Shown here piece after piece: positions 12,150 through 23,832 of a stretch of DNA of 64,000 nucleotides. The stretch comes from Methylophaga sp. (GTDB lineage Bacteria > Pseudomonadota > Gammaproteobacteria > Nitrosococcales > Methylophagaceae). Made by a program: the position numbers and the translations under genes. Every line of letters begins with the position of its first letter. Position 1 is the first letter of the stretch. The notes under the pieces are model-generated. The model did not search any database, had not been told where the DNA came from, and saw nothing but the letters and a program-made list of their open reading frames with translations. The stretch covers positions 124,001-188,000 of the forward strand of contig DRHW01000002.1 in the NCBI GenBank assembly GCA_011053005.1, read 5' to 3'.

Positions 12150-12159
12150 AAATATCAAT

Positions 12160-12236
12160 TAAAGCCAACCTTGGTGTGAACCAAGTTACGGAAAGCTTCA
12201 GGTCTTTAGTTCGCTACTAAAGATAGCTGGGTTGCA
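12160..12236 (+). promoter_or_regulatory. c-di-GMP-I (GEMM-I) riboswitch aptamer
   Basis: The sequence follows the GEMM-I consensus in order: a GCCAACC segment, a hairpin TTGGT/ACCAA capped by a GTGA (GNRA) tetraloop, the conserved ACGxAAAGC core, then a second hairpin (TCTTTAG/CTAAAGA), and a closing TAGCTGGGTTGC that pairs back to the start. One core base differs (ACGG for ACGC). It sits in the 5' leader of a PEP-CTERM-type surface protein, a known target class for this riboswitch. The ribosome site begins only about 12 bases after the aptamer, which suggests control of translation initiation; no intrinsic terminator lies between. Confidence 0.85.
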
Positions 12237-12257
12237 TTTTTCTCTTAGGAAAATGTT

Positions 12258-12854
12258 ATGAAAAAAATATTACTTTTAGGCTCTTTATTATTAGCTGTAT
12301 CGGCGACTAGCACAGCTGCCACACTCACATTTGAAGGCCAAAACAATACTACATACACTAGCTCGATCGAGCGTGATGGATTTCGCATTGGAAATTCTAG
12401 CGGTCAAGAACAGCACTTTCATGAAATAGATAGTACTCAATACGGCTTAACTAGTAACGGTACGGGCGTTTTACTTAATGATAGAGATACGAACATATTT
12501 GTAGAAAGTGCTGTAGGCAGTGTTTTTTCTTTAACCAGCGTTGATGTCGCAGCTTCTCTTAGTAATTATCCTGCAAGTTCTATTGTGATAGAGGGTTTTT
12601 TGGGCGGTCTTTCTGTTGGTACTATAAGCGCAATATTTTCTTCAAACTTTATTACACTTAGTGGTGCCTCACTAGGTAATTTAGATAAACTCGTATTTGA
12701 TGGTATTGGTTTAGAAGGTGGCTTTGAACTTGATAATTTAGTCTTAGGCCCAGCTGTTTCAGCTGTACCTATCCCAGCCGCAGCCTTCTTATTTGCACCA
12801 GCATTACTAGGTTTTATGGGCTTACGTCGTAAAGCTAAAAATACAGTCGCTTAA
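12258..12854 (+). CDS. PEP-CTERM-type sorted surface protein
   Basis: The 198-residue product has a Sec signal peptide (MKKILLLGSLLLAVSATSTAA), a Gly/Ser/Asn-rich β-type body and a C-terminal sorting tail: VPIPAAA, a hydrophobic segment (FLFAPALLGFMGL) and RRK. This VPxPAA variant of the PEP-CTERM signal is recognised by exosortase, which is not encoded in the window. Such proteins go to the surface or the extracellular matrix of exopolysaccharide producers. The AGGAA ribosome site at 12248 lies right behind the c-di-GMP aptamer. The body resembles no domain that I know. A terminator follows. Confidence 0.82.
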   Translation: MKKILLLGSLLLAVSATSTAATLTFEGQNNTTYTSSIERDGFRIGNSSGQEQHFHEIDSTQYGLTSNGTGVLLNDRDTNIFVESAVGSVFSLTSVDVAASLSNYPASSIVIEGFLGGLSVGTISAIFSSNFITLSGASLGNLDKLVFDGIGLEGGFELDNLVLGPAVSAVPIPAAAFLFAPALLGFMGLRRKAKNTVA

Positions 12855-18427: not shown

Positions 18428-19477
18428 ATGAGAAAAAAACTCATCACTCTCGTCTGCGTTATGGCGATGCCCATATCTAGTTATGCCATAGATACTGTAG
18501 AAACACTTGATGGCGGCGTTTTAACAGGCACAATAACCTCTATTACTAAAAAAACACTCATCTTAGAAACAAGTTATGCAGGTGATATCACTCTGCAACG
18601 CAGTCAAATCAAAGGGTTTGATACCGATCAAACCGTATTTGTAAGACTACAAAATGGGGCAACGTTAGAAGGTCAAGTCCATCACGATGGTGATGGTCAA
18701 CTTAGCATCACTGATCAGGATGAGACTATAACGACAGCAACAAAAACGGTGGTTGAAACTTGGCAAACAGAAGCAACTGATCCACAAATATTACGAACCC
18801 AAGCAAAAATTGATAACTTGCAAGGCACTTGGTCATATCAAGCTTCATTGGACATTGTCGGTAAAAAAGGTAATTCAGATCAATTTGGAGCCAGTGTTTT
18901 ATTAGATGCTACACGCAAAAGTATCAAAGATACTTTGAAGTTTTACGGCTCATTAGAAAAAGAGACTAAAAACGATGTCGATACTGCTGACGAAATTATT
19001 CTAGGTTCAGAATACACCGCTTATTATGCTGATCCTTGGGGTTGGTATGTACGTGGCGAAGTTGAACAAGATGACTTTGAAAACCTTGATCTGCGTACTA
19101 TCTTAGGTTCAGGTTTAAATTATCGTGTGTTTAATGAAGAAGATCATTCTCTTGAATTACGTTCTGGTCTTGGTTATCGTCACGAAAGCTTTAATGATGG
19201 CACCACTGAAAGCTCACCCACATTAGATTTTGGTTTAGCACACGAATGGCAGTTTGCAGATTGGGCAAGAATGACAAACCAATTAACTTACGCACCCGCG
19301 ATTAATGATTTTGCTGACTACCTTCTAACGCACGATTCAGGCGTTAATATTCCAATAGGTTTTTCAAATTATTGGAATTTAAGATTTGGTTTGCGTAACG
19401 ATTATAAAAGCTTGCCTGCTGACGGTCGTGAAAAGTTAGATACTAGCTATTATTCTCGCCTTCAATTGAAATGGTAA
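18428..19477 (+). CDS. DUF481 outer-membrane β-barrel protein
   Basis: The 349-residue product has a signal peptide ending in SSYA, an N-terminal region of two short SH3-like repeats (LDGGVLTGTITSI and LQNGATLEGQV) and a DUF481 β-barrel from about residue 130 (WSYQASLDIVGKKGNSDQFG) with alternating strands to a C-terminal aromatic residue (YYSRLQLKW), as expected for BAM-inserted proteins. Function in the family is unknown; some members are induced by salt or acid. ATG 18428 follows AAGGA at 11 bases. It is monocistronic, with a strong terminator. Confidence 0.85.
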   Translation: MRKKLITLVCVMAMPISSYAIDTVETLDGGVLTGTITSITKKTLILETSYAGDITLQRSQIKGFDTDQTVFVRLQNGATLEGQVHHDGDGQLSITDQDETITTATKTVVETWQTEATDPQILRTQAKIDNLQGTWSYQASLDIVGKKGNSDQFGASVLLDATRKSIKDTLKFYGSLEKETKNDVDTADEIILGSEYTAYYADPWGWYVRGEVEQDDFENLDLRTILGSGLNYRVFNEEDHSLELRSGLGYRHESFNDGTTESSPTLDFGLAHEWQFADWARMTNQLTYAPAINDFADYLLTHDSGVNIPIGFSNYWNLRFGLRNDYKSLPADGREKLDTSYYSRLQLKW

Positions 19478-19542: not shown

Positions 19543-19589
19543 ACCGTGAATCATCTGAAAATTTATTAAGTGATTCACGGTTTTTTTTT
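19543..19589 (+). terminator. terminator downstream of the DUF481 gene
   Basis: ACCGTGAATCA (19543-19553) pairs perfectly with TGATTCACGGT (19571-19581), followed by eight T. Confidence 0.88.
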
Positions 19590-19779: not shown

Positions 19780-20064
19780 ATCTTAACAACTTTCAAAGGT
19801 CTGTTTATCTTTATTTCAGTAGCTTGCACACTGTCACAAACGATTAATTATTATCTCTTCGCTCGTTCAGACCACTTTGGTCTACCCATATCTCACCACC
19901 AATCAGCGGGCTCCCCAGATGCGCCTCAAATCAAGATGATTTGGCACCGCTTGCCGTTAATAAGAATTCCCTCGTTTCTATGTACTGCTACACATACACC
20001 TCTAGGCACGACACTAGGTTTAATGCTAAACCACCAGCTTTAAACATCATATATAACAATAATA
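19780..20064 (+). promoter_or_regulatory. long structured 5' leader of the ectoine operon
   Basis: The leader has several hairpins: AGACCA/TGGTCT (19869-19883), CAAATC/GATTTG (19927-19943) and GGTTTA/TAAACC (20017-20032). GGTCTG at 19798-19803 can also pair with CAGACC at 19868-19873, which excludes the first hairpin. No T-run follows any of them. No ribosome site precedes ectA. The arrangement suggests control at the RNA level, but I know of no described riboswitch that matches. Confidence 0.5.
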
Positions 20065-20604
20065 ATGGAGAAAACAATCGACACTTCACATAAGGACCTC
20101 ATATTTAGTAACCCTGTGCTGAGCGATGGCCATGCCATTTACCAGCTCATTAAATCTTGCCCACCGTTGGATTTAAACTCTAGCTACTTGTATTTTTTAC
20201 AAGCTTCTCATTTTGCAGACACCTGCATCGTCGTGAAAAAAGATGGCGTCATCATCGGATTTTTATCCGCATATTATCAGCCAGATAAACCTCATACGCT
20301 TTTTGTATGGCAAGTGGCCATTGCCGAAAGTGCACGTGGCCGCGGCTTAGCTAAAGCAATGTTGCTTGAATTATTAAAATGCCAGCCTAAAGATTCAGCA
20401 ATGACAGAAATTGCCTGCACTATCAGTCCATCTAATAAAGCATCGCAAGGTCTTTTTGCCTCGTTTGCATCAAAGCACGGACTGGTTATGCAAGTCTCGG
20501 CTTTCATAAATGAAGCGCATTTTGGTGATGAGAATCATGAAGCTGAAGAACTTTATGTTCTTAAAGCTGCCGACAATACTAAATTAATACCTTATTTTTC
20601 TTAA
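20065..20604 (+). CDS. ectA: L-2,4-diaminobutyrate acetyltransferase
   Basis: EctA acetylates diaminobutyrate with acetyl-CoA at the γ-amino group, the second step of ectoine synthesis. The 179-residue GNAT protein has the family features SCPPLDLNSSY (about 31-41), LQASHFADTC and the acetyl-CoA loop RGRGLAKAML. Its length is typical. The ATG at 20065 has no recognisable ribosome site upstream, only an AT-rich stretch, unlike ectB and ectC. It is the first gene of ectABC-ask. Confidence 0.95.
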   Translation: MEKTIDTSHKDLIFSNPVLSDGHAIYQLIKSCPPLDLNSSYLYFLQASHFADTCIVVKKDGVIIGFLSAYYQPDKPHTLFVWQVAIAESARGRGLAKAMLLELLKCQPKDSAMTEIACTISPSNKASQGLFASFASKHGLVMQVSAFINEAHFGDENHEAEELYVLKAADNTKLIPYFS

Positions 20605-20615
20605 AGGAATACAGA

Positions 20616-21881
20616 ATGACATTAGAAATATTTAACAAATACGAATCTGAAGTTCGTGGTTACATCCGATCATTTCCGACCATCTTCGATAAATCTAAAA
20701 TGGCAGAAATTTGGGATGAATCTGGCAAGCGCTATGTTGACTTTTTTGCTGGTGCTGGCGCGTTAAACTACGGTCACAATAACCCTAAAATTAATGAAGC
20801 GATCATTACTTATCTTAATAATGATGGAATTGGTCATGCTTTAGATATGGGTACAGTAGCTAAACGCAACTTTTTAGAAAGCTTTGTACATAAAGTTCTT
20901 AAACCTCGCGGCTTAGATTACAAACTGCAATTTGTTGGACCGACAGGTACTAATGCAATTGAATCAGCATTAAAAATTGCTCGTAAAGTCAAAGGTCGCA
21001 AACAAATCATGTCATTTACCAATGGTTTTCATGGCATGTCATTAGGTTCATTAAGCATCACCGGTAATAGTTATTATCATGATGACAGCTACGGAGTTCC
21101 TGGATACACCACACAGATCCCTTTTCATGATTATTTAGGTGATAAAGTCGATACGATTGCTTATCTAAGAAAGATTTTAGGTGATGATTCAAGTGGTACC
21201 GATCTCCCTGCTGCTATTGTTTTGGAAACAATTCAAGCAGAAGGCGGTATTAATGTTGCCGGTGAACAGTGGTTAAAAGACTTACGTAAAATCTGTGATG
21301 ACTTCGATATCTTAATGATTGTCGATGATATCCAAGTAGGTAATGGTCGTTCAGGTGATTTCTTCAGCTTCGAAAGAGCGGGAATCAAGCCTGACATCGT
21401 CACCCTATCTAAATCAATAGGTGGTGGTCTTCCTATGGCAATGGTTCTACTTAAACCAGAGCTTGATAAATGGAGTCCAGGTGAACACTCTGGTACGTTC
21501 CGTGGTTTCAATCTTGCATTTGTAGCAGCGACCGTTGCTATTGATACTTACTGGTCTGACGACAAATTCTCAAAAGAAATCAAGGTTAAATCCAAACTAG
21601 TTGAAAAACGTATGCAGGATCTTGCCTTACGTTTTTCTGACCATGTAAATGAAATACGTGGTTATGGAATGATTTGGGGCGCTGAATTCAAAGATCCTGA
21701 AATTACCTCAGCTATTTGTTCACAAGCCTTTGAAGATGGCTTGATCATTGAAACGGCAGGTGCTTCTGACGATGTCATTAAATTTTTAGGCTCACTAATC
21801 ATTACTGAAGAGTTGATTAATGAAGGCTTTGATATATTAGAAAGTGCCATCGAAAAAGTACTTAAGAATCCAACTAAATAA
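20616..21881 (+). CDS. ectB: diaminobutyrate-2-oxoglutarate transaminase
   Basis: EctB converts aspartate-4-semialdehyde and glutamate to L-2,4-diaminobutyrate, the first committed ectoine step. The 421-residue class III aminotransferase has PTGTNAIESALK, the D-DDIQVGNGR cofactor stretch and pyridoxal-phosphate lysine K266 in LSKSIGGGLPM. Length matches EctB (about 420). It lies 11 bases after ectA, with AAAGGAA before ATG 20616. Confidence 0.96.
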   Translation: MTLEIFNKYESEVRGYIRSFPTIFDKSKMAEIWDESGKRYVDFFAGAGALNYGHNNPKINEAIITYLNNDGIGHALDMGTVAKRNFLESFVHKVLKPRGLDYKLQFVGPTGTNAIESALKIARKVKGRKQIMSFTNGFHGMSLGSLSITGNSYYHDDSYGVPGYTTQIPFHDYLGDKVDTIAYLRKILGDDSSGTDLPAAIVLETIQAEGGINVAGEQWLKDLRKICDDFDILMIVDDIQVGNGRSGDFFSFERAGIKPDIVTLSKSIGGGLPMAMVLLKPELDKWSPGEHSGTFRGFNLAFVAATVAIDTYWSDDKFSKEIKVKSKLVEKRMQDLALRFSDHVNEIRGYGMIWGAEFKDPEITSAICSQAFEDGLIIETAGASDDVIKFLGSLIITEELINEGFDILESAIEKVLKNPTK

Positions 21882-21911: not shown

Positions 21912-22304
21912 ATGATTGTTAAAAATCTCTATGATGATGTCATCGGTACTGATGCTGATGTAGATGCCGCCCAATGGACTAGCCGTCGTTTATTACTGGC
22001 CAGTGATGGCATGGGATTTTCACTTCACGACACACTGATCAAAGAAGGCGAAGAGTTACACATGTGGTATAAAAATCACTTGGAAGCCGTATATTGCATT
22101 GAAGGTGAAGGCGAAATCACCGAAAAGAAAAATGGTAAGGTTCACCAGATTCGCGAAGGCACCGTCTATGCGTTAAATGATAATGACCAACATATATTAC
22201 ATGCAAATAAAGGTGTAAGAATGCGTATGGTTTGCGTCTTTAACCCGCCTGTTACCGGTCGTGAAACGCATGATAAAGACGGTTCATACCTTTTACCAGA
22301 ATAA
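21912..22304 (+). CDS. ectC: L-ectoine synthase
   Basis: EctC cyclises N-γ-acetyl-diaminobutyrate to ectoine with loss of water. The 130-residue cupin shows the family core: WTSRRLLLASDGMGFSLHDT, then HLEAVYCIEGEGE, then GTVYALNDNDQH and a C-terminal FNPPVTG. Metal-site residues expected for EctC (E in CIEGEGE, Y in VYAL, H in DQH) are visible. A TAGGAG ribosome site precedes ATG 21912. No ectD hydroxylase follows, so the product should be ectoine rather than hydroxyectoine. Confidence 0.96.
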   Translation: MIVKNLYDDVIGTDADVDAAQWTSRRLLLASDGMGFSLHDTLIKEGEELHMWYKNHLEAVYCIEGEGEITEKKNGKVHQIREGTVYALNDNDQHILHANKGVRMRMVCVFNPPVTGRETHDKDGSYLLPE

Positions 22305-22330
22305 TAGAATATTCATTAACTATATTAACT

Positions 22331-22350
22331 GGCGGTCTTGCGAGGCCGCC
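22331..22350 (+). promoter_or_regulatory. intercistronic hairpin between ectC and ask
   Basis: An 8-bp, mostly G-C stem (GGCGGTCT with AGGCCGCC, one G-T pair) has a TGCG tetraloop. No T-run follows, so it is not a full terminator. It holds the GAGG that could serve an ATG at 22357 and may lower ask translation or stabilise the upstream mRNA. Confidence 0.6.
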
Positions 22351-22356
22351 GGCTTA

Positions 22357-23832
22357 ATGTCAAACAGGATAACTACCCAAAATAGCATGTCAAATACTCC
22401 AAATAGAAAGTTAAGCATAGAAAAAATTGGTGGCACTTCAATGAGTGACTACGTAGCGGTTAGAGATAATATTGTGCTCTATTCAAACAATCCTTATCAC
22501 CGCGTGCTCGTTGTTTCTGCCTATAGCGGCATCACTGATGATCTCTTAGAGCATAAAAAAACGGGGCAACCCGGTGTTTATGGACTTTTTGCACATAACG
22601 ATAATAAGAGTGATTGGGGACTTGCTTTCCAACAGCTAGGCCTGAAACTAACCCAAATCAATAACACGCTTTTTAGAGATGCCGAGCAACTCGCCTTAGC
22701 CAATGAGTTCATTAATGAGCGTATTGCTAAAACCAAGCAGCTATTAAATCATTTGCAAGTTTTATGCGGTCATGGTCATTTTTCATTAGATGATCATCTA
22801 CTCACTGTCCGTGAATTATTGGCCAGTATTGGTGAGGCACATAGTGCTTGGAACCTAAGCCAATTACTCAAAAATGAAGGCGTTAATACCTGCTTTATAG
22901 ATTTAACAGGCTGGGAAGCAGAGCTTAAACAACCTTTAGATGATGCAATCACTGAACATCTTGAAGGTATTGATTTTACTAAAGTATTACCCATTGTGAC
23001 CGGTTATGCTCATTGTAGTGAAAACCTGATGGACAGCTTTGATCGTGGTTATAGTGAAATGACGTTTAGCCGAATTTCGGTACTGCTACAAGCAACAGAA
23101 GCGGTGATTCATAAAGAATATCATTTGAGTAGTGCCGATCCTCGTTTAGTAGGGGAAGAACAAGCGATTCCTATTGGCAAAACCAACTATGATATTGCCG
23201 ATCAACTGGCAAATCTTGGTATGGAAGCCATTCATCCGCATGCGGCAAAAGGTTTACGTCAGGCAAAAATAGCCCTACGAATTAAAAATGCCTTTGAACC
23301 AGAACATCACGGCACCTTGATCACCGATGATTACATTAGCGAATCACCCCAGGTAGAAATTATTGCGGGTATGCCTAACTTAATCGCATTGGAAATGTTT
23401 GATCAAGAAATGGTCGGACAACAAGGCCGTTATGAAAAAGTGTTAATCGACATGGCGGCACGTTTGCAATGTAAGGTGATAACGAAAGACTTTAATGCCA
23501 ATACCATTACTGTTTTCTTAGATACCTCGCTTAAAAAAGCGAAACGTCTTGCCGAACAATTGAAACAACATACACCGACTGCTGCAGTCAGCACGAGTAA
23601 AGTATCGCTCGCCTCTGTAATGGGCAGTGATATGCGAATAAAAGGTTTATTAGCACGTTCAGTACAAACTATGTTCACCAACGATATCAATATCGAAGCT
23701 ATGCATCAGAATATTCGCCAAGTGGAAATGCAATTTTTTGTTAATCAAAGCGATTATGAAAAAACCATAAAAGCCCTGCATTCAAGCTTAATAGAAATAC
23801 ATGACCACGGAAAAGCCATATGCGAGCATTAA
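22357..23832 (+). CDS. ask: aspartate kinase of the ectoine pathway (Ask_Ect)
   Basis: This 491-residue kinase makes aspartyl phosphate dedicated to ectoine. The kinase signature KIGGTSMSDY lies near the N-terminus, followed by the amino-acid-kinase body (LTVRELLASIGE, GYAHCSENLMDSFDRGYSEMTFSR, HKEYHLSSADPRL). The C-terminal regulatory part is divergent, as known for Ask_Ect, which is less sensitive to feedback. ATG 22357 is possible with GAGG at 11 bases; ATG 22387 would give 481 residues. The frame is open further upstream into ectC, but that is not used. The stop overlaps the next gene by 13 bases. Confidence 0.92.
   Translation: MSNRITTQNSMSNTPNRKLSIEKIGGTSMSDYVAVRDNIVLYSNNPYHRVLVVSAYSGITDDLLEHKKTGQPGVYGLFAHNDNKSDWGLAFQQLGLKLTQINNTLFRDAEQLALANEFINERIAKTKQLLNHLQVLCGHGHFSLDDHLLTVRELLASIGEAHSAWNLSQLLKNEGVNTCFIDLTGWEAELKQPLDDAITEHLEGIDFTKVLPIVTGYAHCSENLMDSFDRGYSEMTFSRISVLLQATEAVIHKEYHLSSADPRLVGEEQAIPIGKTNYDIADQLANLGMEAIHPHAAKGLRQAKIALRIKNAFEPEHHGTLITDDYISESPQVEIIAGMPNLIALEMFDQEMVGQQGRYEKVLIDMAARLQCKVITKDFNANTITVFLDTSLKKAKRLAEQLKQHTPTAAVSTSKVSLASVMGSDMRIKGLLARSVQTMFTNDINIEAMHQNIRQVEMQFFVNQSDYEKTIKALHSSLIEIHDHGKAICEH

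Follow-up and report, generated by a model that had tools for sequence, protein, structure and literature searches.

It is still poorly understood how bacteria detect osmotic stress and induce ectoine synthesis in response, and control has been sought mostly in promoters and proteins. The MarR-type DNA-binding repressors EctR and CosR control ectoine operons in methylotrophs and Vibrio, other osmotic genes carry ion- or signal-sensing leaders (the Na+-I/DUF1646 riboswitch, the nhaA motifs and the c-di-AMP ydaO leader), and the lysine riboswitch belongs to aspartokinase genes. The ectA leader that we describe here has the same target operon as EctR and CosR, but no regulator gene adjoins the ect operon in its neighbourhood within the window (the whole 64,000-nt stretch of Methylophaga sp. 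DNA that was analysed), and the conserved element is an RNA downstream of the promoter. Like the Na+-I/DUF1646, nhaA and ydaO leaders, it would be a structured, cis-acting 5' leader of salt or osmotic stress genes, but it has no Rfam match, has another architecture and is tied to ectA alone. With the lysine riboswitch it shares the aspartate-family pathway, since the ect operon includes an aspartokinase gene, yet it also lacks any match to that Rfam class and precedes ectA rather than the aspartokinase gene. Ribosomal protein and amino-acid attenuator leaders are likewise large, single-copy leaders of one operon in one lineage, whereas the ectA leader has no leader peptide or conserved terminator, and its target is non-ribosomal.

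The operon in the window has the order ectA-ectB-ectC-aspartokinase and is flanked upstream by a DUF481 gene. Its genes and upstream signals are listed here, L002 and L003 being sister species of the same genus.

18428-19477, DUF481 gene upstream of ectA
19544-19589, + strand, intrinsic terminator of the DUF481 gene, CCGTGAATCA/TGATTCACGG followed by T9, conserved in L002 and L003
19745-19773, + strand, promoter, TTGATA-17-TACAAT, extended -10 (TG ahead of it)
20065-20604, + strand, ectA, start AUGGAG, no Shine-Dalgarno
20616-21881, + strand, ectB
21912-22304, + strand, ectC (ectoine synthase)
22261-23832, + strand, aspartokinase, open reading frame as listed, true start probably downstream of 22261

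The terminator at 19544-19589 separates ectA from upstream transcription. Because this terminator is followed by an extended -10 promoter lying at a conserved distance from the first helix of the leader (P1), we estimated that the RNA starts near 19780, which gives a leader of ~285 nt; judged from these signals, transcription is unlikely to start near 20065. The -10 element ends 21 nt before P1 in the window; among 30 leaders, 27 have a spacing of 19-22 nt (counting L059 at 18).

Within this leader, the original prediction had pointed to GGTCTG (19798-19803) and its possible partner CAGACC (19868-19873), to the hairpin AGACCA-CTT-TGGTCT (19869-19883) that would compete for the same letters, and to two further hairpins, CAAATCA-AGA-TGATTTG (19927-19943) and GGTTTA-ATGC-TAAACC (20017-20032), and it had proposed control of osmoadaptation at the RNA level. 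All of these letters and coordinates agree with the sequence. Folded singly, the window leader has an ordinary energy (z -1.5), as does leader L049 (z -0.65), and the case for a structured RNA therefore depends on relatives.

EctA is present in 43 of the 63 genomes of the family of sulfur oxidisers that includes Thiomicrorhabdus and Hydrogenovibrio, and the leaders of relatives have in common a block of the form AGGTTAAGTTATCTTTTTTTCAGTTGTATTTAATACACTGTCATTTGCGTTTAGGCGC...AGACC-n-GGTCAAGTCTAATCCAAAGGACNAGTCCTGAGGAATCAATCGTATGGC and a second block near ectA, TGCGATTGGTTGA. Since MAFFT alone misaligned P1 and P4 between subgroups, the first covariance model (R1) was limited to 14 evenly alignable leaders. 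R1 matched 30 of the 63 genomes, exactly once each, always on the same strand and just upstream of ectA; some genomes of the family with EctA had no R1 match. In an even sample of 369 genomes from across the class, only one matched, and it belongs to the same family. The ectA leader RNA is confined to one family and recipients.

A cmscan search against Rfam 15 gave no match in the window leader at the gathering threshold, and at E values up to 5 none of the matches at 19 loci fell in a leader at its place. Searching plasmids with the leader DNA likewise returned no match, and literature searches of open-licence papers found no description of such an ectA leader. The RNA is thus absent from Rfam, in line with the original prediction, which had found no described class to fit. 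Elsewhere in the window, a c-di-GMP-I riboswitch (Rfam RF01051, 45 bits) occupies 12154-12239, directly upstream of a gene (12258-12854) for a protein with a PEP-CTERM-like tail (VPIPAAAFLFAPALLGFMGLRRK).

The family RNA is ~280 nt long, begins ~14 nt after the estimated transcription start and is laid out as P1-P2-P3-P4-P5, a variable domain closed by the long-range helix P6, then P7 and an A/U-rich start region. P1 is formed by AAGGU/AUCUU and P3 by GCGU-UUAG-GCGC or ACGC. P2, which covaries best among the family helices, is CAG.UGUAU/AUACA.CUG, with GCAAU/AUUGC in another subgroup. P4 is GACC/GGUC, with long insertions in some leaders and GAUUC/GAAUC in L068; P5a/P5 are further family helices. 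We counted covariation on alignments fitted to the model, a procedure that favours the structure, and ran shuffled and slid controls alongside. On 30 distinct rows, 86.8% of the cells were paired, compared with 35-44% when the partner was slid by 1-3 columns; 45 cells were doubly changed, compared with 13.8 in shuffles (0 of 500), and both sides changed somewhere in 16 of the 29 pairs. The original prediction had suggested comparing related ect leaders for covarying stems, and such stems are present. P3 and P5 carry less covariation because both vary little. In one alignment (A5), leaders L064, L065 and L068, with enlarged P2/P3/P4, were misaligned and one false hit (L011 5330-5419) was included; a cleaner set of 23 leaders repeated the covariation picture.

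P6 is an 11-bp helix between the end of the core and a strand whose first base lies 42-60 nt ahead of ectA; in 25 of the 30 leaders, 8-11 of its 11 pairs form. Its support is mostly conservation of both strands, with compensatory change between L053 (CAACCG/CGGUUG) and L054 (CAAUCG/CGAUUG) and in the GATC/GGTC group. For P6b and P7, positions are kept while letters change across the family, which gives moderate support for conservation of these two helices in place.

Several subgroups depart from this layout. At the 5' ends of L049, L050, L053, L054, L063 and L071, an AACC/GGUU hairpin (P0) overlaps P1 (AGGU/AUCU), so that two exclusive foldings would be possible in that one subgroup; P0 was left out of the model. 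P2, P3 and P4 are greatly enlarged in L064 (1056-1260), L065 (1059-1251) and L068 (1089-1284), where the leader is estimated at 387-428 nt, and the P4 loop of L064 contains repeated CTCAAGATGTTCAT. The variable-domain block (A/C)ACGTCTTTTGTGTTTCTCAAATT is conserved in the subgroup of L045, L062, L067, L069, L074 and L077 (one base off in L077); its ACG and the CCUU ahead of it could offer CGUAAGG a pairing that competes with P6.

Conservation of the leader is concentrated in its core, which is 77% identical among ten spread members, compared with 33% at fourfold-degenerate sites (saturated); in the same ten, identity is 39% both in the variable domain and in DNA farther upstream. The start region of ectA is also distinctive. 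As had been predicted, ectA has no Shine-Dalgarno sequence in the window, its best anti-Shine-Dalgarno duplex being +1.8 kcal/mol compared with -5.6 kcal/mol for ectB, and across the same 30 loci the means are -1.4 and -5.8 kcal/mol, respectively. The start AUGGAG, without a Shine-Dalgarno sequence upstream, is found in about 21 of the 30 loci, the window (20065-20070) included. GGAG sits just inside ectA in the loci with this start. In the Hydrogenovibrio leaders L051 and L052, the P6 complement is missing, an SD-like AAAAAGG precedes ectA and the start is not AUGGAG; the SD-like sequence may be a compensating change. The ectA start region was not clearly sequestered in predicted folds. Intrinsic termination, considered as a mode of action, was rejected: no intrinsic terminator before ectA is conserved in the family leaders, and terminator-like sites are sporadic and lie at different places.

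Set against this layout, the window leader consists of the following elements.

19795-19911, + strand, core match to the ectA-leader covariance model (R2), P5 deleted and P3 degenerate
19795-19812, + strand, P1 hairpin AAAGGU-CUGUUU-AUCUUU, contains GGTCTG, a covarying helix in the family
19817-19833, + strand, P2 hairpin, reduced, CAGU...ACUG, 4 bp left in the window
19869-19883, + strand, P4 hairpin AGACCA-CUU-UGGUCU, covarying with variable loops in the family
19897-19911, + strand, position of the P6 5' strand, pairing lost in the window
19927-19943, + strand, hairpin CAAAUCA-AGA-UGAUUUG of the variable domain, common only to sister species L002 and L003
20007-20019, + strand, position of the P6 3' strand (CACGACACTAGGT), pairing lost in the window
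20017-20032, + strand, P7 hairpin GGUUUA-AUGC-UAAACC, p 0.01 in the window, position conserved in the family

The window leader scored weakly against R1 (15.9 bits). Against R2, which was built from relatives without the window, it gave E 3.5e-5 within the window and was the top-scoring site of its genome (29.5 bits, E 0.0016); R2 includes the two sister species L002 and L003, so part of this score is plain sequence homology. An alignment through L057 and L059 showed homology over the full length, from promoter to start codon. P1, P4 and P7 are perfectly paired, and the window combines a model match upstream of ectA, the promoter spacing, intact P1 and P4 and the SD-less AUGGAG start. P5/P5a is deleted in the window, L002 and L003; P3 (GCGU-UUAG-GCGC in the family) does not pair and is degenerate, and the P6 helix does not form in the window (p 0.87). 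Leader core identity between the window and L002/L003 is ~65%, only modestly higher than the 60% of the flank. By these sequence comparisons, the window leader is a degenerate copy of the family ectA leader RNA, and its function in this genome is therefore uncertain. RNA-level control by an undescribed class, as proposed, is well supported by the relatives, which have a conserved, covarying leader restricted to ectA and a fixed promoter, but the copy that inspired it is degenerate. Of the hairpins proposed as elements, those at 19869-19883 (P4) and 20017-20032 (P7) proved to be family helices, while the one at 19927-19943 is shared by the sister species only.

EctA searches found close relatives in L002 and L003 (78-80% identity), and also in Thiomicrorhabdus chilensis and Hydrogenovibrio. 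The EctA proteins of the window, L002 and L003 nest beside L057/L059 inside the Thiomicrospiraceae (support 100/99) and apart from most EctA proteins of their own family, which is probably the Methylophagaceae to judge by genome neighbours. This nesting suggests that the operon and its leader probably moved together, acquired laterally from the Thiomicrospiraceae. The EctA of L004 has a second, separate placement, and the L004 leader is degenerate as well; the leader has probably eroded in both recipients after transfer.

We consider it likely that the window leader is a divergent copy of a structured RNA that serves as a dedicated cis-regulator of ectABC-ask at the level of translation, and that operon and leader came from the Thiomicrospiraceae, after which the leader eroded. 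Against this reading stand the ordinary single-sequence fold energies, the confinement of the RNA to one family and its recipients, the loss of P5 and P6 in the window copy, and predicted folds that do not clearly sequester the ectA start. Action on translation is most likely because there is no conserved terminator and because P6 and P7 adjoin the ectA start; the core fold together with P6/P7 would set access to the SD-less start, with a salt- or osmolyte-linked signal as the candidate input. A more specific and more tentative proposal, which we regard as possible but short of probable, is a riboswitch-like class devoted to ectoine synthesis: the RNA would respond to ionic strength, to a particular ion or to ectoine itself, would drive translation of ectA without a Shine-Dalgarno sequence and would have spread laterally with its operon. 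The main rival to a translational sensor is a protein-binding site or stability element. That the leader is conserved as such a site, as an mRNA-stability element or as the source of a small RNA seems rather unlikely; it agrees just as well with the leader's strong conservation, its 5' position and its presence as a single copy, but the conserved geometry extends to the ectA start (the P6 3' strand, P7 and the SD-less AUGGAG), and a small RNA would have no conserved terminator to release it. For this genome in particular, a serious contender, almost as likely as a working element, is that the leader is the remnant of a regulator gained by lateral transfer and no longer functions, ectA being simply transcribed from its promoter. 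The deleted P5, lost P6 and degenerate P3 speak for it, as do the relaxed conservation in the recipient genus and the equally degenerate leader of the second recipient, L004, whereas the perfect pairing of P1, P4 and P7 and the retained promoter spacing and SD-less start speak for continued function.

The remaining readings concern individual motifs. Pairing of GGTCTG (19798) with CAGACC (19868), which would exclude the P4 hairpin, was the switch at the centre of the original prediction; it is perfect in the window, but across the 30 distinct leaders it did no better than shuffles (covariation score 0.120 compared with 0.117, 67.6% compared with 66.6% paired), and GGTCTG belongs to the conserved local hairpin P1, so such a switch is very improbable. 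Equally doubtful is the idea that the palindromes are DNA operators, for instance for an EctR/CosR-type repressor: AGACCACTTTGGTCT is a perfect palindrome, but it lies within the transcribed region, ~90 nt from its start, relatives preserve the pairing despite changes in letters and loop length, and the ect operon has no neighbouring regulator gene. Least probable of all is control of ectA by a leader peptide or upstream frame through translational coupling. The predicted frame from ATG 19980 does overlap the ectA start in the window, although it has 37 codons rather than 36, but it is not conserved: L003 has no ATG at that place, and the 30 leaders share no small open reading frame.

Returning to the eroded translational regulator as the preferred reading, loss of P5 and P6 after entry into the genus would mean that ect control in this genome is probably weakened or altered. 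Leaders eroded after lateral transfer offer natural mutants for finding out which helices matter. A conserved RNA linked only to ectA provides a candidate sensor that is both compact and testable. Since Hydrogenovibrio marinus is under development for producing ectoine from CO2 (PMC12129253), the leader could also be of practical use.
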